Both the position numbers and the translations under genes were made by a program. Of a DNA stretch of 64,000 nt, positions 33,081 to 62,772 are shown piece after piece. Location of the stretch: positions 237,566 through 301,565 of the forward strand of contig JAHDCC010000001.1 of NCBI GenBank assembly GCA_020630065.1, read 5' to 3'. Every line of letters begins with the position of its first letter. Positions within the stretch are counted from its first letter, which is position 1. The stretch comes from Acidimicrobiales bacterium (GTDB lineage: Bacteria; Actinomycetota; Acidimicrobiia; Acidimicrobiales; SZUA-35). The notes beneath the pieces are model-generated. The model did no database searches. It was not told the origin of the DNA and saw only the letters and a program-made list of their open reading frames with translations.

Positions 33081-33671
33081 GTGGTACTTAATCCCGAGCC
33101 TGACGTGACAGATATTGAGCTAGACGACGATAGTGACGGTGAATACTCTACTCGCAGCAGCGTTTTTGAGTGGGCCGTAGTTATCGTGTCGGCCGTTGTC
33201 TTCGCCCTTTTGCTCAGGACCTTTGTGGTGGCAGCGTTTTGGATCCCGTCTGGGTCGATGGAACCGACGTTGGAGATAAACGACCGGGTATTGGTCAATA
33301 AACTTAGCTACACAACTGGCGAGATCAGCCGAGGCGACATTGTTGTCATACGCCGGGAAGAAGTGTTACCGGGACAAACCAAGGACCTTATCAAACGGGT
33401 AATTGCCTTTTCTGGTGAGAGCATTGAGGTGCGGGAAGACACCGTTTTCATCGACGGTGAAGCGATCGACGAGTCCGACTATCTCGCTGACAACGTTCCC
33501 GAAGACGATTTTGGCCCATTTGAAGTACCAGAAGGAACGATTTTTGTTCTCGGAGACAACCGATCAAACTCAGATGATTCAGCCAAAGGGCTAGGCCCGG
33601 TCAACGAAGAACAAGTTGTTGGTCGCGCTTTTGTAAGATTCTGGCCCCTTAACCGTGCTGGTGGTCTGTAA
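33081..33671 (+). CDS. lepB: Signal peptidase I
   Basis: Membrane-bound Ser/Lys protease that removes signal peptides from exported proteins. The 196-residue protein has an acidic ~28-residue cytoplasmic N-terminus, one transmembrane helix (~31-52), the nucleophile Ser59 in IPSGSMEPT, the general base Lys105 in DLIKRVIAF and the late GDNRSNSDDSAKGLGPV box. A second, larger signal peptidase follows 67 nt downstream. Confidence 0.93.
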   Translation: MVLNPEPDVTDIELDDDSDGEYSTRSSVFEWAVVIVSAVVFALLLRTFVVAAFWIPSGSMEPTLEINDRVLVNKLSYTTGEISRGDIVVIRREEVLPGQTKDLIKRVIAFSGESIEVREDTVFIDGEAIDESDYLADNVPEDDFGPFEVPEGTIFVLGDNRSNSDDSAKGLGPVNEEQVVGRAFVRFWPLNRAGGL

Positions 33672-33738: not shown

Positions 33739-35268
33739 GTGGCTCGTGATCGTCCTCCCCCCAACTGGTCAGGTTCCTCCAATCCAGATCGTGATTTTGA
33801 AGGTCGTGAGCGGGATGGTTGGTCTACTGACGACAGTGCACATGACGGCCATGTGCCCAACGTCGCCGACTTTGGTCCCGAAACTAACGCTTTTCTTTGG
33901 GCCCTCGAGGGTGAACCTGACCCGTTCGCAGACAGCCCTGCCCCACAATTTACTGGTTCAGTCGAACAAGTAAATACCGGAGTCGTCCAATCTCGGGCCG
34001 ACTTCTACGATGAAGACGATTTTGTCGATGACGGTCAGCCAGTCGAACAAGGCCAATATTTCGCTGAAGATTTAGGAAATCGCGAGCCGCCAGAGCCCTA
34101 CTATCAATCTGAGAATGGCTTCGTTGACCGCCCTCGAGGCGACAACGTCAACCAGCTTCAAAGGCCCGACCAGCGATCGAATCTGGACGAAAACGATGGG
34201 GTGGATCCTCGGTACCAGACCGGCCAGACTCAATTCTATGACGAGCCATACCCTTCACATGAGGTGCCGTCATCGCGTGGAGGGTTCGATGACGACGTCA
34301 CGGAAGAACCGGTCGAACATGTCGAGATGTTCGACCCCGCTACGTCGGGACAGTTTTCTAACGAAGACTACGATTTCAGCCACGAATACTCTGAGGAGCA
34401 GCTCCGTCTCCCGGCCTTCGAAAATATCGACCCACCCCACCACCGTCAAAACGACGAGTGGTTTGATCAGAACAACATTCGAGAACCAGAAATCTCCCAG
34501 TTTCGGAGCGATAACAGCGAAGACCTAGGTGACTATCGTGCCGGGATCCAACGCGACGTTGTTTCAGAGAACACGAACAGTGTTCAGTATCCGGCCGCTG
34601 ACGAGCTACGACACGACAACGATTATTACGACGACTACGAAGAAGAACTATACGAACCAGATCGGCGTCAGCGCCCGTCCCGACCCAGACGTCGTCCAAG
34701 ACAACCGAAGGACGGCTACGTTGTTGAAAGTAAATCCAAAAGCAATAAGATTCGAGACCAACTAATCGAGATTCTGTTTTTGGTAGTTCCAACGATCATT
34801 TTGGTGCTGCTAGTAAGAAGCTTTGTTGTCTCACCGTTTCTGGTGCCAACTCCGTCGATGGAACCGACGCTTGAAATAGGCGATCGTGTTCTCGTGAACA
34901 AATTAAGCTACCGGGTTGGTGACGTCAGCCGAGGGGACATTGTTGTTGTGCAGCTTGATACTGAAGAAGGTGAAAAGGTCATTATCAAACGAGCTATTGG
35001 CTTGCCGGGTGAAACTGTCGAGATACGCAACAACCAGGTAATCATCAACGGCAAACTAGCTCTCGAAGAGTCGGACTATTTAGAAGATGATGCGGTCAAC
35101 GCAGACTTTGGGCCGGTAAGGATACCTCCCGATGAACTGTTCCTTCTCGGCGACAACCGTGAAGTATCCGATGATTCGTCAAAGGAGCTGGGCCCAGTGC
35201 CCGTGGACCGGGTTGTAGGACGGGCCTTTGTCAGGTTCTGGCCGATGGGCCGGTTCGGCTCGTTGTAG
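33739..35268 (+). CDS. Signal peptidase I with a long acidic N-terminal extension
   Basis: 509 residues. The last ~165 form a complete signal peptidase: transmembrane helix (~342-363), Ser373 in PTPSMEPT, Lys417 in IIKRAIGLPGE and the GDNREVSDDSSKELGPV box. The first ~340 are polar, rich in Asp, Glu, Gln, Tyr and Pro, with no recognisable domain, ending in a basic RRQRPSRPRRRPRQP stretch before the helix. The extension should face the cytoplasm. It is a tandem paralogue of the gene upstream, with substitutions around the nucleophile (PTPS for PSGS). Confidence 0.9.
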   Translation: MARDRPPPNWSGSSNPDRDFEGRERDGWSTDDSAHDGHVPNVADFGPETNAFLWALEGEPDPFADSPAPQFTGSVEQVNTGVVQSRADFYDEDDFVDDGQPVEQGQYFAEDLGNREPPEPYYQSENGFVDRPRGDNVNQLQRPDQRSNLDENDGVDPRYQTGQTQFYDEPYPSHEVPSSRGGFDDDVTEEPVEHVEMFDPATSGQFSNEDYDFSHEYSEEQLRLPAFENIDPPHHRQNDEWFDQNNIREPEISQFRSDNSEDLGDYRAGIQRDVVSENTNSVQYPAADELRHDNDYYDDYEEELYEPDRRQRPSRPRRRPRQPKDGYVVESKSKSNKIRDQLIEILFLVVPTIILVLLVRSFVVSPFLVPTPSMEPTLEIGDRVLVNKLSYRVGDVSRGDIVVVQLDTEEGEKVIIKRAIGLPGETVEIRNNQVIINGKLALEESDYLEDDAVNADFGPVRIPPDELFLLGDNREVSDDSSKELGPVPVDRVVGRAFVRFWPMGRFGSL

Positions 35269-53888: not shown

Positions 53889-56003
53889 ATGATTCGATCT
53901 GACTTTTCACTAAGTGGTTTCGTAAACTGCGTCGAGATAGACCGCGGCGGTTCGGCCATCATCTATAGAGCAGAACAACCAGAATTTGGTCGCACGGTTG
54001 CTATTAAGGTGTTATCTGCACTGCGCGACCCCGAAGCGATCGAACGGTTCAATACCGAGCGCATCACGATGGGCCAGCTTTCCCACGCACAAGGAATCGT
54101 CTCGGTCTATACCTCAGGGACGACTAACGAAGGCGACCCGTACCTGGTTTTGCCGTTCTATGAGGGAGGCTCGCTCCAGGATCAGCTAGACGGAAACGGC
54201 GCCCTGCGTTGGCGTCGGGCTACCCAACACATCATTCAAATATGTCGCTCAGTTGATTTCGCCCATTCCAAAGGGGTTTTTCACCGCGACATTAAGCCAG
54301 CCAACTTACTTGTCGCCGATGACGGTAACGTCCACATAGCAGACTTCGGAATTGCGTCGCTTGCGCTAAACGATCCTGGTCAACAGACGCTGTGTACACC
54401 TGCATACGCACCACCAGAAGTGCTTCGAGGTATCACTGAAGCTGACCCAATACCGATCGATATTTATGGGCTAGGCGCAACACTGTGGGCGCTGCTTAGC
54501 GGTGAGGCGCCGTTCATCACGCGTTTCACTAGTCAACAACCGAATCTTGAACGGTTCACCATGCGTTCATGGGCGACAACTCATCAGCTCGAAGGCTTCG
54601 CTGAACTGGTCGACAACGAAGTGGTTCCCGATTTACGAGAGTTCGTACCAGACCCAATATGCGCCACAGTCGAACAAGCCATGGAGAAAGACCCGGCACA
54701 ACGTTTTTCTTCCGCCCGAGCATTTGGAACCGCGCTACGACATGCCATTCGACTTTCCGCTGAACAGCTTGTCTTAAACCAGCCGACTGGGGCGACACTG
54801 CCGCTTCATAGAAACACGATGGAGCCAATCAATTCTCAGGCCAGTGGCCGTAGCCTCCCTCTTAATCTCACCGATGATGTAGCGACCGAAGTTTCAGAAC
54901 CCACCGAGCAGGTCCCGATCACATCGATCGGCTACGACAAAACACAGAAGTACAGTAAAACTCAGACAACATCGCGAGACGCTGAAGTCACCACCAGCGA
55001 GATTCGCCCAACACCACCTCCAGGAAGTCAACTTCCCGAAGATTCCAAACAACGTCGAATCGGATCATCGTTGCTTGGGTTAGCGGCGATAGTTGCGGTA
55101 GTCGTAATCGCAGGTGTTGCGTTGCTTTTTGCCGCGAACGCAGACGGGTCAGCTCCAGGCGGGATGGTTAACAACTATGTAGGCCTCCAGCTAAGTGAAG
55201 TTGAAATTGAGGCAACCCAAGCCGGTTGGCTCATCGAGACTTCCAGATCCCGGCAAGACGGAACCAAAGTTGATGAAGTACTTTCCCAAAGCGTTCCCGA
55301 AGGGACCGACCTCGATGGCAAACAAACATTGGGACTCGTGTTATCTGACGGCCCAGAATTGCGTACTGTTCCAAACGTCGTGGGCCTTGACCTAAACGAG
55401 GCACGCACCAAGATTCGCGACGCCAACCTCGAAGTGGGTGAAGTCAGTGAATCCATCGACGAGTCAGTACAGTTTGGCCGAGTCGCCATGCTGCTGTTCG
55501 AGGGGCAAGAAGTAGCGGCCGAATACGAGACAGGAACTAAGGTTGACATCGTGGTGAGCCTGGGGCCGGCGGAAGTAACTGTGCCGCTGCTTGAAACCGT
55601 CGAGTCAGCTGAACGAGTTTTTACCGATGATTTGGGCTTATCGTTCACCGTCGTTGAGGAGTTTTCCGACGATATCGAACTAGGTGGGGTTATTCGGACA
55701 GAACCCGCTGCTGGGGCCAAAGCGAAACCGGGGGATTCGGTCACCGTGTATATGTCAGCCGGCCCTAAAACACGTGAGATTCCTAACGTAATCGGACAGT
55801 CAGCTCAGGCAGCTCGAGAACTTCTTGAACAAGCCGGATTTGTCGTAGATAGTCAAGATAAAGGTCCGGGAAGATGCAGAATCAAACTTGCCGGGAACCC
55901 TAAGACCGAATGCGACAACTATGCAGCAAACCTCGTTTGGGCGTATGCGCCAACAGGCGAGGCCGATGTTGGAACTACCGTAGTGATTCTGGTCAAAGAA
56001 TAG
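53889..56003 (+). CDS. PASTA-domain serine/threonine kinase
   Basis: 704 residues: kinase domain (~10-280) with the Gly-rich loop, VAIK Lys40, HRDIKPAN with Asp134 and DFG Asp152; a Ser/Thr-rich linker; a transmembrane helix (~394-417); and four extracellular PASTA repeats (~425-704). PASTA kinases sense peptidoglycan precursors and control division. The last repeat holds an insertion with two Cys (GRCRIKLAGNPKTEC). AGGAG lies upstream. A natural substrate candidate is the FHA protein at 16075, as PknB-GarA in mycobacteria. Confidence 0.92.
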   Translation: MIRSDFSLSGFVNCVEIDRGGSAIIYRAEQPEFGRTVAIKVLSALRDPEAIERFNTERITMGQLSHAQGIVSVYTSGTTNEGDPYLVLPFYEGGSLQDQLDGNGALRWRRATQHIIQICRSVDFAHSKGVFHRDIKPANLLVADDGNVHIADFGIASLALNDPGQQTLCTPAYAPPEVLRGITEADPIPIDIYGLGATLWALLSGEAPFITRFTSQQPNLERFTMRSWATTHQLEGFAELVDNEVVPDLREFVPDPICATVEQAMEKDPAQRFSSARAFGTALRHAIRLSAEQLVLNQPTGATLPLHRNTMEPINSQASGRSLPLNLTDDVATEVSEPTEQVPITSIGYDKTQKYSKTQTTSRDAEVTTSEIRPTPPPGSQLPEDSKQRRIGSSLLGLAAIVAVVVIAGVALLFAANADGSAPGGMVNNYVGLQLSEVEIEATQAGWLIETSRSRQDGTKVDEVLSQSVPEGTDLDGKQTLGLVLSDGPELRTVPNVVGLDLNEARTKIRDANLEVGEVSESIDESVQFGRVAMLLFEGQEVAAEYETGTKVDIVVSLGPAEVTVPLLETVESAERVFTDDLGLSFTVVEEFSDDIELGGVIRTEPAAGAKAKPGDSVTVYMSAGPKTREIPNVIGQSAQAARELLEQAGFVVDSQDKGPGRCRIKLAGNPKTECDNYAANLVWAYAPTGEADVGTTVVILVKE

Positions 56004-57408: not shown

Positions 57409-58791
57409 CTAGTTTGGCTTAAAGGCAGCAGAGTTGTCGACCTCGGCGTCATCGTCGGTCTCAATTTCGGCGGGCTGTTCAAAAGCGGGCTGTTCGAAAT
57501 CTGGTGCGTCAAAATAGATTGTGGAGTCTTCGCTTGTTGGTTCTGTGCCATCTCGTACGAAGTAGGTGGCGGCAACCCGATCTATGATCTCTGGCGTCAA
57601 AACCGGCTCTGACTGGTCATAGTCGAGAATACAACTCGCTATTTCGCAGAAATCGACCGCAATATAGGGGCGGAGCTCTCCGAGATACTTTCTGGAGATG
57701 GTCGCGATATAGGAAGCGGTTTCAGACGTAATTCTGATGCCAAGCCGATCGGCGGCTCGAGCCAGGCTCCAAGAGAATCCTTCTTCATCCATGGCTCCGA
57801 CAAAGATCTTGTTCTGCAGACGTCGTAAGAACGCGTCGTCGCCAAGGTCGGTAGGTTCTAGGTTAGTCGAAACAACCAATTTGAGTCTGAACGGTACCGT
57901 GAACTTTGTGCCACTTCGGCCTCGAAGATAGTCGACGCCTGTGCTGAGCGGAAGAATCCAACGGTTCAGTATCTGTTCTGGTTTGGCGGTTTGACGGCCA
58001 AAGTCGTCGACCACCAGCAGACCGTTGTTGGCCAGCATCTGCAACGGTGCAGTGTGTAGACCGCTTAGAGAATCGTGCTGTAGATCGAGCGAGTCCATTT
58101 GGAGTTCACCGCCAACGATGATGACCGGACGTTTACACACCACCCATCTTGGGTCAAGGCCTGGAGGTTGGACAGGATTTTCGTGGTGAAGCGCAGGGTC
58201 GAAAATCGAAATCAGTTGGCTGTCAACTTCGATAATGCGAGGAATAAGAATATCGTCATTGGCGAACCGGCCAAGTCGTTCCGCAAGAGATGTCTTGCCG
58301 GTTCCAGGTGGTCCATAGAGAAACATCGCGCCACGACTAAGAAACGCGGGGCCTAGCTGGTCGATCATCTCGTCGGAGACAACCAGGTCAGATAGGTGAG
58401 CTTTTATAGCTTCTCGGTCTAGGGAGACATCGACGGCTTGACTTTCTACCGCGAAACGGTAGTCCTCAAGAGGAACTGGAACTGGGACTACGTAACTGGC
58501 CGTTCGCATAGCCTCGTTTGTTCGACGTTCACCAGATTCAGTCAACGCAATTCTGTAGTCTCGTCCTTCGGCTCCCAGATACTCGAGCTGCTTCTTACCG
58601 CGCAGTGACTCGGCGATCTGTTGCCCAATGGTCTGTGAAACATGAATTCGTTTCGAAACCGCACCGATAGTGGATGTTTTCTCGACTGATAGACGGCGGG
58701 CGAATAGTTCTTCAACTAGCCCGCTAGGTACGCCAAGATCTTCGATCTTGACTGGGGTGTTGAAGTTGGGTCGTGTTTCTTCCGGCCTCAT
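57409..58791 (-). CDS. AAA ATPase with N-terminal winged-helix region
   Basis: 460 residues: an N-terminal winged-helix-like region (~15-90), then an AAA module with Walker A GPPGTGKTS, Walker B LLVVDDFGRQ, sensor STNLEPTDLGDDAFLRRL and a C-terminal helical lid, ending in an acidic tail. It resembles uncharacterised actinobacterial and Chloroflexi AAA proteins. The target is unknown. It is followed by PrsW on the same strand upstream at 38-nt spacing. Confidence 0.8.
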   Translation of the reverse strand: MRPEETRPNFNTPVKIEDLGVPSGLVEELFARRLSVEKTSTIGAVSKRIHVSQTIGQQIAESLRGKKQLEYLGAEGRDYRIALTESGERRTNEAMRTASYVVPVPVPLEDYRFAVESQAVDVSLDREAIKAHLSDLVVSDEMIDQLGPAFLSRGAMFLYGPPGTGKTSLAERLGRFANDDILIPRIIEVDSQLISIFDPALHHENPVQPPGLDPRWVVCKRPVIIVGGELQMDSLDLQHDSLSGLHTAPLQMLANNGLLVVDDFGRQTAKPEQILNRWILPLSTGVDYLRGRSGTKFTVPFRLKLVVSTNLEPTDLGDDAFLRRLQNKIFVGAMDEEGFSWSLARAADRLGIRITSETASYIATISRKYLGELRPYIAVDFCEIASCILDYDQSEPVLTPEIIDRVAATYFVRDGTEPTSEDSTIYFDAPDFEQPAFEQPAEIETDDDAEVDNSAAFKPN

Positions 58792-58829: not shown

Positions 58830-59990
58830 TCAAGCTCTATCTGGAATTTTTGCTGTGGTGAACGCACTCATACGTGCTGACTGGAGTTGGCTCGCCAGAA
58901 GCTCTTCTTGAGTTCGACTCACCTTACCTGGGCCGCCGTGAGCCAACGCCAACTTGCTAAGTGATGCGTGGAGCCGGTCAAAATTTCTCCGTTGCGGAGA
59001 TGAGAGTTGTCTGCGGGTAGCGAACCGTTTTCGCCAATCTCCAAATATTTCGACTTCTGGCTCTGATATTTGGTATCTGCTTGCCAAGATCGGTATTTGT
59101 TGGACAAATACCCGCTGTTGACGCCTTAAGATCAAAAACATGCCGCCCAGGACCGTCAGAAACAGCACTAGGTAAACAGGGTATGCGAACCAGACGAGAT
59201 TCTCCTCGCCGATCTCGATGGAATACGTTATGCCCCCATTCCATGACGCGTGGCCGACAACGGCTAACGGGTAACCCCAAAGAACATGGGCGAACGTCGA
59301 TTGCTGCCATCGCACCGACAAGCCAACGCCAAGTCCGATCCAGAACGTGAAAAGTGGATGAGCGAACGGGGAGAGTACCCCACGAAGGAAGAACGTGTAG
59401 AGGAGCGACCCGAAGTCGGGGGTGCTGGCAAAATATGTGATGTTTTCGACTACTGCGAAACCAAGCGCTACCAGTGTTGAGTAGGTGACGCCATCAACAA
59501 TTCCGTCGATCTCTTTCCGTCGTAGAGCCCAAATGACGGCTAGTCCTTTAGTTGCTTCCTCAACGATGGGTGCAGACGCTATTGTCGCAAGTTGTTCGCC
59601 CAGTATTATCGCAACAACGGTGTTGAAGAAACCAGAGATCAGAGTCGCTACCAGGGCTCCCCAAAGCAGGGCGTGTATCCGAGAAGACCAAGGTTGGGGG
59701 GCGACCAGATTCAAAACCCACAGCATGACAAAAAGTAGGACTAACGGCATAAGTGCCAAAAATCCTGCCACCGGGTTGAGGTAGATAAAGACCAAAATCA
59801 GTGGAATTGATAAAAACGCTGAAATCACAACCGGTAGACTCAACCAGTTTGGCAGTTTTGGTTCGCCGGTTTTGCGAAGGCTTACATTCGCGGTCCAAGC
59901 CGACCCATCCCACCAACGCCAGGCAAACGCCCCCCACGGATCCGAATACCATCCAGGGATCTGCTCAGTTTTAAAGTCTTGGGTGGTCAC
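58830..59990 (-). CDS. PrsW-family intramembrane protease with DUF2510 domain
   Basis: 386 residues. N-terminal DUF2510 segment (GWYSDPWGAFAWRWWDGSAWT, near residues 13-33), then about seven transmembrane helices with the PrsW motifs EEATKGLAV, FAHPLFTFWIGLGVG and VVGHASWNGG that bind zinc. A ~90-residue polar C-terminal tail follows. B. subtilis PrsW cuts an anti-sigma factor; the target here is unknown. GTG start. Confidence 0.87.
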   Translation of the reverse strand: MTTQDFKTEQIPGWYSDPWGAFAWRWWDGSAWTANVSLRKTGEPKLPNWLSLPVVISAFLSIPLILVFIYLNPVAGFLALMPLVLLFVMLWVLNLVAPQPWSSRIHALLWGALVATLISGFFNTVVAIILGEQLATIASAPIVEEATKGLAVIWALRRKEIDGIVDGVTYSTLVALGFAVVENITYFASTPDFGSLLYTFFLRGVLSPFAHPLFTFWIGLGVGLSVRWQQSTFAHVLWGYPLAVVGHASWNGGITYSIEIGEENLVWFAYPVYLVLFLTVLGGMFLILRRQQRVFVQQIPILASRYQISEPEVEIFGDWRKRFATRRQLSSPQRRNFDRLHASLSKLALAHGGPGKVSRTQEELLASQLQSARMSAFTTAKIPDRA

Positions 59991-60064: not shown

Positions 60065-60772
60065 CTATTCGACGGTCAGCTGAATCGTGTAAGGAGCCGA
60101 CACCGTTCCTTGTGCACTGTCACGGCTATATGCGTGGGCGGTAAGCGTATAGTTGCCCGGTTGTTGTAACCAGCGAGTCTTGCCGTTGAGCTCGTATGGT
60201 GGTTGGTCTTCAAGCCGTCGGGGAGTCCCGTCAACTGAAAACACTACGCTTTCGGTGATCGAGGTCGCGTACGCTTCGACCGACAATGAAGCGGTTGGGA
60301 ACTCGCTGCGTCGTATCACCGAACCGTTAGTTAACGTCATGAGCGCTCGGCCTGTTCTGGCGTCGATGAGTACGAGCTGAGTGATGCCAAGAGAAGGTTG
60401 CGGTTCCGTTTGTGGAACAGGTGGGGGACTGGTGGTAGTTGTGCTGGTCGCAGGCTTGCTGTTAGAAGACTTGGCCCGGTCTTGTGATGTTGTTGATGTT
60501 GTTGTCGACGTGTCGGAGTTGTTTGATGATTGGGCAGGCCCGATGGACTTGATATCTTCCGCAGCCACTACTTCTGGCCGGGCTCCAGCCCCGGATGATG
60601 TTGTTGTCGATTCCGAAATAGTTGTCGTTGTTCTACTCAACGACGTGTCGATTCGGTCATCCGGCGAGAGATACCCGTAGACGATCGCGGCGCCTACTAA
60701 CGAAAAGACCACAACGAAGCTAACTATTCGACCTATGAACGGCGCTGAGGATCTGTGCCAACTCAGATTCAT
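60065..60772 (-). CDS. Membrane-anchored protein with Thr/Ser linker and C-terminal Ig-like domain
   Basis: 235 residues: an N-terminal transmembrane helix (~15-35), a long Ser/Thr-rich linker (~42-120), and a C-terminal ~105-residue domain (ITQLVLIDARTGRALMTLTNG ... NYTLTAHAYSRDSAQG ... TIQLTV) resembling Ig-like modules in secreted glycan-related proteins. It should be exposed outside the cell on a flexible stalk. Function unknown. A 25-bp tandem repeat lies upstream. Confidence 0.68.
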   Translation of the reverse strand: MNLSWHRSSAPFIGRIVSFVVVFSLVGAAIVYGYLSPDDRIDTSLSRTTTTISESTTTSSGAGARPEVVAAEDIKSIGPAQSSNNSDTSTTTSTTSQDRAKSSNSKPATSTTTTSPPPVPQTEPQPSLGITQLVLIDARTGRALMTLTNGSVIRRSEFPTASLSVEAYATSITESVVFSVDGTPRRLEDQPPYELNGKTRWLQQPGNYTLTAHAYSRDSAQGTVSAPYTIQLTVE

Positions 60773-60912: not shown

Positions 60913-61068
60913 CTAGCCAGCGAAGACTTGGAGTAACACGACACCTAGAACGATTAGCACTATTCCGAAAATGGCCATCTTGATCAGCTTCTTAACCAAC
61001 CCAGCAACGATCACGAATGCTCCGGCGGCAGCGAGAGCGATGGGCCAGTTATCTATAATCCAATCCAT
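60913..61068 (-). CDS. Small membrane protein with two hydrophobic helices
   Basis: 51 residues from ATG 61068, starting MDWIIDNWPIAL and containing hydrophobic stretches at ~9-24 and ~31-49 around a short KKLIK loop. No family is recognised. The start is set by TACCCT 7 nt upstream; longer in-frame starts exist. Possibly a helper or membrane-tension protein, but nothing shows a function. Confidence 0.55.
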   Translation of the reverse strand: MDWIIDNWPIALAAAGAFVIVAGLVKKLIKMAIFGIVLIVLGVVLLQVFAG

Positions 61069-61131: not shown

Positions 61132-61563
61132 CTATGAATTTGCGGTCAAAACACGTTTGTCCTGCTGAATGCCGGTGATTCGGCACGACTCAATTGGGGT
61201 CGTGGTATCTTCCGGCACAACAACAAGTGCGGCCTGCCGTGCACTCGTGACGTCTTCAGCACGCACCAGCACGGACTGGGTTGTAGCGTCCGTTGCTCGA
61301 AGTTCGACCCGGAACGTAAATGTCTTTGGTGTTGGTTCTTCGACCGAATAGAGAACAACGAACGGTCCATCAGTAGTACGTTCGCAGGTAGCAACGCCAT
61401 TGCCTAACGGGCCGAATGGCACCGTGGTGGCTTGAGCTGTCGCTCCTCGACTCTCAGTATCTTCATCACCAAGACTGAGAAGACTAACCCCGACTATCAG
61501 CAACACGAACAACACCGTCAAGCCGATGACGATGGTTCGTTGATGATCGGCAGCTGTAGTCAT
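61132..61563 (-). CDS. Membrane-anchored protein of unknown function
   Basis: 143 residues from ATG 61563, which has GAGGAGAT just upstream. One N-terminal transmembrane helix (~12-32) is followed by a ~105-residue extracellular region with two Cys (in GVATCERTTDG and IESCRITG) that could form a disulfide. The family is not recognised. Confidence 0.62.
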   Translation of the reverse strand: MTTAADHQRTIVIGLTVLFVLLIVGVSLLSLGDEDTESRGATAQATTVPFGPLGNGVATCERTTDGPFVVLYSVEEPTPKTFTFRVELRATDATTQSVLVRAEDVTSARQAALVVVPEDTTTPIESCRITGIQQDKRVLTANS

Positions 61564-61656
61564 ATCTCCTCGCCCACACAGAGTTCTGTATGCCAAAGCT
61601 AGCACCTAAATGTAAGATTTGACTTGACGTATGTACTGATTAGTTGGCTGATGGGC

Positions 61657-61662
61657 TAATCT
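61657..61662 (+). promoter_or_regulatory. Leaderless -10 element before the TIR-like gene
   Basis: TAATCT lies 6 nt before ATG 61669. Confidence 0.5.
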
Positions 61663-61668
61663 GGCTGG

Positions 61669-62772
61669 ATGCTTGACCAGGCAGCTCAAGAAGACTTCGA
61701 CTCAGAACCGTTCGCCTCGTCATCGGTTGTGGTCGGGCACGGCTCAAGTAAGGAAAACGGTCTGGAGCTTGCTCACTTTGTGACACAGCGCCGCTATTTC
61801 GTCGACACTTTTGATGCGTCAGCAGATGACGCCGACGAACGAATTCAAGACTGGGTTGACAACTCGCTCGACGAACCCAAGATGTTTTTTCTTGTAGTGT
61901 CCCAAAAAGACGTTGACGAGGGAAATAGGCCGTGGGTGCAATCCAAAGTTCTTGATCAGGCACGCAAGTTGCTTTCTGCCTTTGGTAAAGGCCGAGTAAT
62001 TCTTGTGGTTGAAGCCGGAATTATTGACTTCGACTACAACTCAGGGCTCGACGATATTCTTTTCCCTCCAGGGAAACTCTCTTCGACATATCGAAGCGTG
62101 GCCGCATTTTTGGTGCGTGAGTTTGGTTCTGAAGGTAACGCCGGACCTGGAAGCGGGAAACCAACAAGTAAGAAACGGTCCGAGCGCGAGCCGTTAGAAA
62201 CCGACGTCAAAATGGCTATTGCCTTGCTGGCGTTGGCTGCAATATTCGGCGGGATCTATATGATTCGGCTCTTCACCGGTAACTCGTCAGACGAAGCGAT
62301 CCCCGAAGTCGGCGGTGTCGAGTTAAGTTTGCCGTCGTCCCAACCTGAGTTGGCCGGACCAGAGCAGACACAGCCGCCAACAACCGTTCTCACCCCTCCT
62401 GCCCAAGTCACTGCGTTGCCAGCCACCTGCCGCATTAGTCTAGTGAGATCAACCACCCTTCCAGGAATCGTTTACTGCGATGACGGGGGAGCGCTGAGAG
62501 TTACCGGCTATAGCGGGCCTTGGCACAACTCTGTTGCCCGCATCGGACTTGAAACCCAAGTAACCGGATCGTTCGTGTACGAGCAGAACGGCAACACGGT
62601 TTCGGTTGGCCCAGGCGTCTCCAATTTGGATCCTAGTAGTTCACGATTCGGGGTTCAGGAAATGGTCTTCCGGTTCGAAGCCGACGGGAAACGTGTCCAA
62701 TTCGAGCAGTTCCCAGAAGATGGTCAACGCGTCGTGACATTCACCTTTGACGCTTCGCTACAGCGGCCATAG
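61669..62772 (+). CDS. Membrane protein with N-terminal TIR-like (PF10137-like) domain
   Basis: 367 residues. Residues ~19-155 resemble the TIR-like nucleotide-binding domain of CAP12/PCTIR proteins by eye: VVVGHGSSKENG, then MFFLVVSQKDVDEGNRPWVQSKVLDQARKLLSAFGKGRVILVV, and a late SGLDDILFPP segment. The family catalytic Glu (in NVxFELG) aligns with Gln97, so NAD hydrolysis is doubtful. A basic linker, a transmembrane helix (~181-200) and a ~165-residue extracellular domain with two Cys follow. The combination places the TIR-like part inside the cell. Function unknown; confidence in the TIR-like call is moderate. Confidence 0.6.
   Translation: MLDQAAQEDFDSEPFASSSVVVGHGSSKENGLELAHFVTQRRYFVDTFDASADDADERIQDWVDNSLDEPKMFFLVVSQKDVDEGNRPWVQSKVLDQARKLLSAFGKGRVILVVEAGIIDFDYNSGLDDILFPPGKLSSTYRSVAAFLVREFGSEGNAGPGSGKPTSKKRSEREPLETDVKMAIALLALAAIFGGIYMIRLFTGNSSDEAIPEVGGVELSLPSSQPELAGPEQTQPPTTVLTPPAQVTALPATCRISLVRSTTLPGIVYCDDGGALRVTGYSGPWHNSVARIGLETQVTGSFVYEQNGNTVSVGPGVSNLDPSSSRFGVQEMVFRFEADGKRVQFEQFPEDGQRVVTFTFDASLQRP

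Follow-up and report, generated by a model that had tools for sequence, protein, structure and literature searches.

Why would a bacterium keep a TIR domain in which the catalytic glutamate has been replaced, and tie it to the membrane? The nearest characterised bacterial TIR domains are NAD-consuming defence enzymes, and animal TIR domains are mostly scaffolds. The question is raised by a gene of an uncultured Acidimicrobiales bacterium, located at positions 61669-62772 of the plus strand in the window, the 64,000-nucleotide stretch of DNA that was analysed. The open reading frame is real and codes for a protein of 367 residues. With moderate confidence, and on the grounds of its sequence and predicted models, we propose that this protein spans the membrane and serves, without enzymatic activity, as a TIR adaptor or scaffold derived from an NAD-cleaving TIR of the CAP12/Pycsar type.

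The protein is built of five successive parts. The TIR-like domain of CAP12/PCTIR type occupies residues 1-155 (61669..62133), with a fold core at about 18-155, and is followed by a K/R-rich basic juxtamembrane segment (residues about 156-180; 62134..62208) and by a single transmembrane helix (residues about 181-203; 62209..62277), seen in the Kyte-Doolittle profile and matched by hydrophobic residues at the same site in the relatives. A Pro/Thr/Ser-rich linker, the length of which differs between relatives (residues about 204-249; 62278..62415), leads to an all-beta exterior domain with two invariant cysteines, Cys254 and Cys270, and a GPW(H) motif (residues about 250-367; 62416..62772). The hydropathy of the window protein peaks at 2.17 over residues 184-202, and its membrane helix is preceded by six K/R within 20 residues and followed by none. 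This single transmembrane segment and the charge asymmetry support a predicted N-in/C-out topology. The tethering of the first domain by a helix to a cysteine-containing exterior domain, as the original prediction had it, was thereby borne out. Around the gene, no RNA family was matched, no promoter rose above chance in a scan for the sigma-70 type, and neither did a terminator. A TANNNT-like hexamer, a pattern outside the scope of the sigma-70 scan, lies at most ~15 bases from the start codon in several members (window 61640-61669; L042, L043). In leaderless actinobacterial transcripts, a TANNNT-like hexamer is found similarly near the start codon.

The window protein gave no direct match in Pfam, NCBIfam or PADLOC and did not reach the PF10137 cut-off of 24.7 bits; no PF10137 match was obtained in the window genome either. 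Two relatives exceed this cut-off (L002, 26.3 bits; L003, 34.9 bits), so that the proposed membership of PF10137 held in direct HMM comparison for these relatives and not for the window protein itself. Profile comparison went further. With hhalign, the N-terminal domain of the family aligned to genuine PF10137 domains gathered from the order (reference set A5) with a probability of 98.7 and an E-value of 3.8e-16, and the window domain alone with a probability of 92.2 and an E-value of 5.8e-7. The family profile also recovered a genuine soluble CAP12-type TIR protein (L037, E 2.7e-19), and its best sequence match in the PDB was PycTIR (E 2e-4). The predicted model of the N-terminal domain (mean pLDDT 76) found TIR-STING as its top match both with Foldseek against the PDB (E 2.2e-5) and with VIA-align (Z 14.2, 139 residues superposed with an rmsd of 3.1). 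Many receiver domains and other flavodoxin-like folds reach Z 10-11 against this model, which means that the identity of the domain could not be settled from its fold alone; sequence profile and predicted structure are nonetheless in agreement on a TIR domain, and the assignment of the first ~155 residues to the PCTIR/CAP12 type is upheld on both counts. We class the protein in a degenerate branch that is anchored in the membrane and akin to PF10137, rather than among the effectors of CBASS or Pycsar systems.

Relatives were gathered by a whole-genome search and a family alignment, because single-protein scans of genome and viral collections returned none. The family numbers at least 15 proteins, which come from uncultured Acidimicrobiales; 13 of them, the window protein included, make up the alignment, L047 and L053 having been added later. 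Aligned relatives are 21-28% identical to the window protein and keep a constant layout of TIR domain, helix, linker and exterior domain; nine of them are carried by named contigs of uncultured Acidimicrobiales or Acidimicrobiia. Within the taxonomic family of the window genome, the TIR gene is present in 15 of 39 genomes and in 4 of 11 genera. Among 298 genomes spread over the order, full-length matches are restricted to this taxonomic family, as are matches to the exterior domain bar one weak hit, and 396 genomes spread over the phylum contained no further full-length member. In the open-access literature, we found no paper on PF10137 proteins of this architecture. Another association of the domain was seen in G426, where a 542-residue frame on the minus strand (L165) apparently fuses a PfkB-like carbohydrate kinase, recognised by eye, to a CAP12-type TIR in which the RQN...HE motif is intact; ~1.5 kb away lies another TIR-like match (L166).

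What remains of the active site can be read against SfSTING, for which PMC9402430 describes an NADase site made of S10, R78, N80 and the catalytic E84, together with D110 from the partner subunit, and reports that D110A abolishes activity. In the alignment, the window protein has Q91, K93, Q97 and Y123 at the places of R78, N80, E84 and D110, respectively. The glutamine at the catalytic position (codon 61957..61959) had been predicted, and alignments with genuine domains and with SfSTING place it there as well; the loss extends to all four residues rather than to Gln97 alone, which strengthens the earlier view that the sequence is not that of a suicide enzyme. Over the 15 members, R78 is never retained, N80 once, E84 four times and D110 twice, and none has all four. 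Where the glutamate is missing, Ala, Asp, Gln or Thr takes its place; for L009 and L010 it is a hydrophobic residue or Thr, as two alignments differ by one column. The genuine domains in the same alignment keep the glutamate in seven of seven cases and all four residues in five. The simplest reading of these sequences is a branch that lost NAD cleavage. Some activity may persist in the four relatives that keep this catalytic glutamate. The number of glutamate losses is not firmly countable, because the window protein sits on a long branch of the tree and its position there is uncertain.

The exterior domain is modelled with high confidence (pLDDT 92.7), and it has no confident fold match in the PDB; among viral models, too, no match was significant. 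Its identity as one of the known lectins or cupins was considered and found unsupported, the best PDB match, the FedF lectin, scoring Z 7.5, within the range of chance-best matches, with Foldseek E-values of 0.016 or more. That the domain binds something at the cell envelope is a guess, because of this lack of a confident fold match. A second copy of the exterior domain occurs in G027 (L056/L055), with a membrane helix and no TIR domain in the frame seen; it lies at two contig ends, the end of C16 and the start of C64, which may belong together.

The surroundings of the gene are also conserved. Upstream and divergent from it lie a small protein with a single membrane segment near its N-terminus and a cysteine-containing exterior part (61132..61605, minus strand), a 51-residue two-helix membrane microprotein starting with MDWIIDNWP and without Pfam match (60913..61068, minus strand) and a Thr-rich protein (60065-60772). 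Beyond these are two syntenic neighbours on the minus strand, a DUF2510-PrsW family intramembrane metalloprotease (58830..59990) and a MoxR-like AAA ATPase (57409..58791); other neighbours encode HAD and rhodanese proteins. MoxR, PrsW, the small exterior gene and the two-helix protein stand at corresponding places in all nine named relatives. The arrangement reaches genus g3 (L051) and also g5 (L050), there without PrsW, and in G062 both small proteins accompany the TIR gene with PrsW and MoxR ~30 kb away. On sequence evidence, the gene sits at a conserved chromosomal site rather than in a defence island. An exclusive MoxR-PrsW-TIR module was rejected, since MoxR and PrsW are not tied to the TIR gene: MoxR is found in most genomes of the taxonomic family irrespective of the TIR gene and in other surroundings, and PrsW homologues in 36 of 39, many of which lack the TIR gene and then have PrsW in another context. 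Near the locus but outside the conserved neighbourhood, the window carries a Ser/Thr kinase with several PASTA repeats (53889-56003, plus strand). Elsewhere in the window are two adjacent genes that resemble signal peptidases by eye (33081-33671 and 33739-35268, plus strand); the second is extended at its N-terminus by a long low-complexity stretch.

The two-helix microprotein accompanies the TIR gene almost without exception. It is present in 15 of the 39 genomes of the taxonomic family, 14 of which are among the 15 bearing the TIR gene (Fisher p 1.4e-8, uncorrected for kinship). In the one TIR-bearing genome where it is missing (G012), the TIR gene lies 282 bases from a contig end, and in the one genome with the microprotein and without the TIR gene (G035), the microprotein gene sits on a 3.5-kb contig that stops short of the expected TIR position. 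This co-occurrence follows phylogeny and may partly reflect shared ancestry.

Several other explanations share part of this evidence. The exterior beta domain might do all the work, for example by binding wall or glycan or by providing an assembly contact, and the TIR domain would then be a folded cytosolic anchor without signalling. This anchor-only reading is allowed because the exterior domain is conserved more strongly, with a mean column identity of 59% against 51% for the TIR domain and with each of the ten columns that are invariant across the family lying within its bounds, and a stretch of ~10 TIR residues is absent from several members. A mere anchor, however, need not be a folded domain of 150 residues, and every full-length member has its TIR domain with the core and E115 retained, so that we regard a purely structural role as doubtful. 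At the opposite end, the TIR domain might still bind or cleave NAD or another nucleotide by means of other residues. The HGSS motif after the first strand is kept in the window protein as in genuine members, and the four glutamate-bearing relatives could be viewed in this light, but the replacement of every one of the four aligned residues in the window protein, and of R78 throughout the family, makes such an altered chemistry very unlikely.

Two further roles can be weighed. In the SigW pathway of B. subtilis, PrsW cleaves the anti-sigma factor RsiW, a protein of N-in/C-out topology. By analogy, PrsW could cut the window protein near the membrane and free its cytosolic TIR domain: the predicted single-pass topology is compatible with that of RsiW, and a divergent PrsW gene stands a few kb away in the window, as it does in genus g3, in G009 and in each of the nine named relatives. 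Regulated proteolysis of this kind could take place, but the distribution of the genes is not in its favour, given the many PrsW homologues in genomes devoid of the TIR gene, the presence of the TIR gene in G014 where PrsW was not detected and the distance between both genes in G062; we judge it quite unlikely. An anti-phage role, as the membrane sensor in a system resembling CBASS or Pycsar, would agree with the mostly defensive nature of the domain family and with the matches of relatives to PADLOC TIR effector models. Yet neither a nucleotide cyclase nor another recognised defence gene was present among the neighbours tested, the synteny is chromosomal and conserved with no variable island, and the active site is lost, all of which renders a defence function highly improbable.

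The adaptor or scaffold reading can be set out as follows. The cytosolic domain would descend from a NAD-cleaving TIR of CAP12/Pycsar type, would have lost this cleavage and would retain only a role in self-association or partner binding. The exterior domain would have a binding target within or at the cell envelope. Such binding, or assembly on the outside, would then be relayed by the helix to the TIR domain; the latter, jointly with the two-helix membrane protein encoded nearby, would serve as adaptor or scaffold. Its basis, namely the predicted fold, the PF10137 ancestry, the loss of catalytic residues, the topology features, the layout, the synteny and the gene pairing, is supported by computation. 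The original prediction of an inactive sensor or ligand-binding transducer fits this architecture; to it are now added a decay of the active site that is family-wide, a conserved chromosomal locus and a co-travelling microprotein. The gene pairing offers a 51-residue membrane protein as a concrete candidate partner, and relatives at several stages, with the glutamate kept or lost, permit comparison.

Compared with the CAP12/Pycsar TIR proteins (PF10137; SfSTING, PDB 7un8; TIR-STING, 9lmq/9lmr; PycTIR, 8jsj), the window domain shares the TIR fold, sequence kinship and the order of strands, helices and motifs, but R78, N80, E84 and D110 of their active site are replaced. These effectors are soluble sensors of cyclic nucleotides, whereas the window protein is membrane-anchored, bears an exterior domain and has no cyclase that was found among its neighbours. 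A membrane tether also occurs in Dictyostelium TirC, where a CAP12/Pycsar-type TIR is likewise tied to a predicted membrane helix; according to PMC13142454, TirC retains the catalytic glutamate, in contrast to Gln97 of the window protein, and acts as a toxic NADase, and the excerpted text describes for it no counterpart of the exterior beta domain.

A branch of bacterial TIR proteins that gave up its enzyme activity, gained a membrane tether and settled in a conserved chromosomal place would be a natural case of the change from enzyme to scaffold. In animal Toll-like receptors, a single membrane helix links an exterior domain to a TIR domain in the cytosol, and signalling proceeds by assembly of this TIR domain, with no NAD cleavage. 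The window protein has the same three-part plan, signalling by assembly being only proposed for it. We consider it unlikely that the full Toll-like-receptor logic applies, that is, an exterior sensor, one helix and a non-enzymatic TIR signalling by assembly, here with a microprotein and from a suicide NADase. The window protein belongs to another TIR subfamily, carries its TIR domain at the N-terminus in reversed order and has an unrelated exterior domain; its resemblance to these receptors would be convergent.
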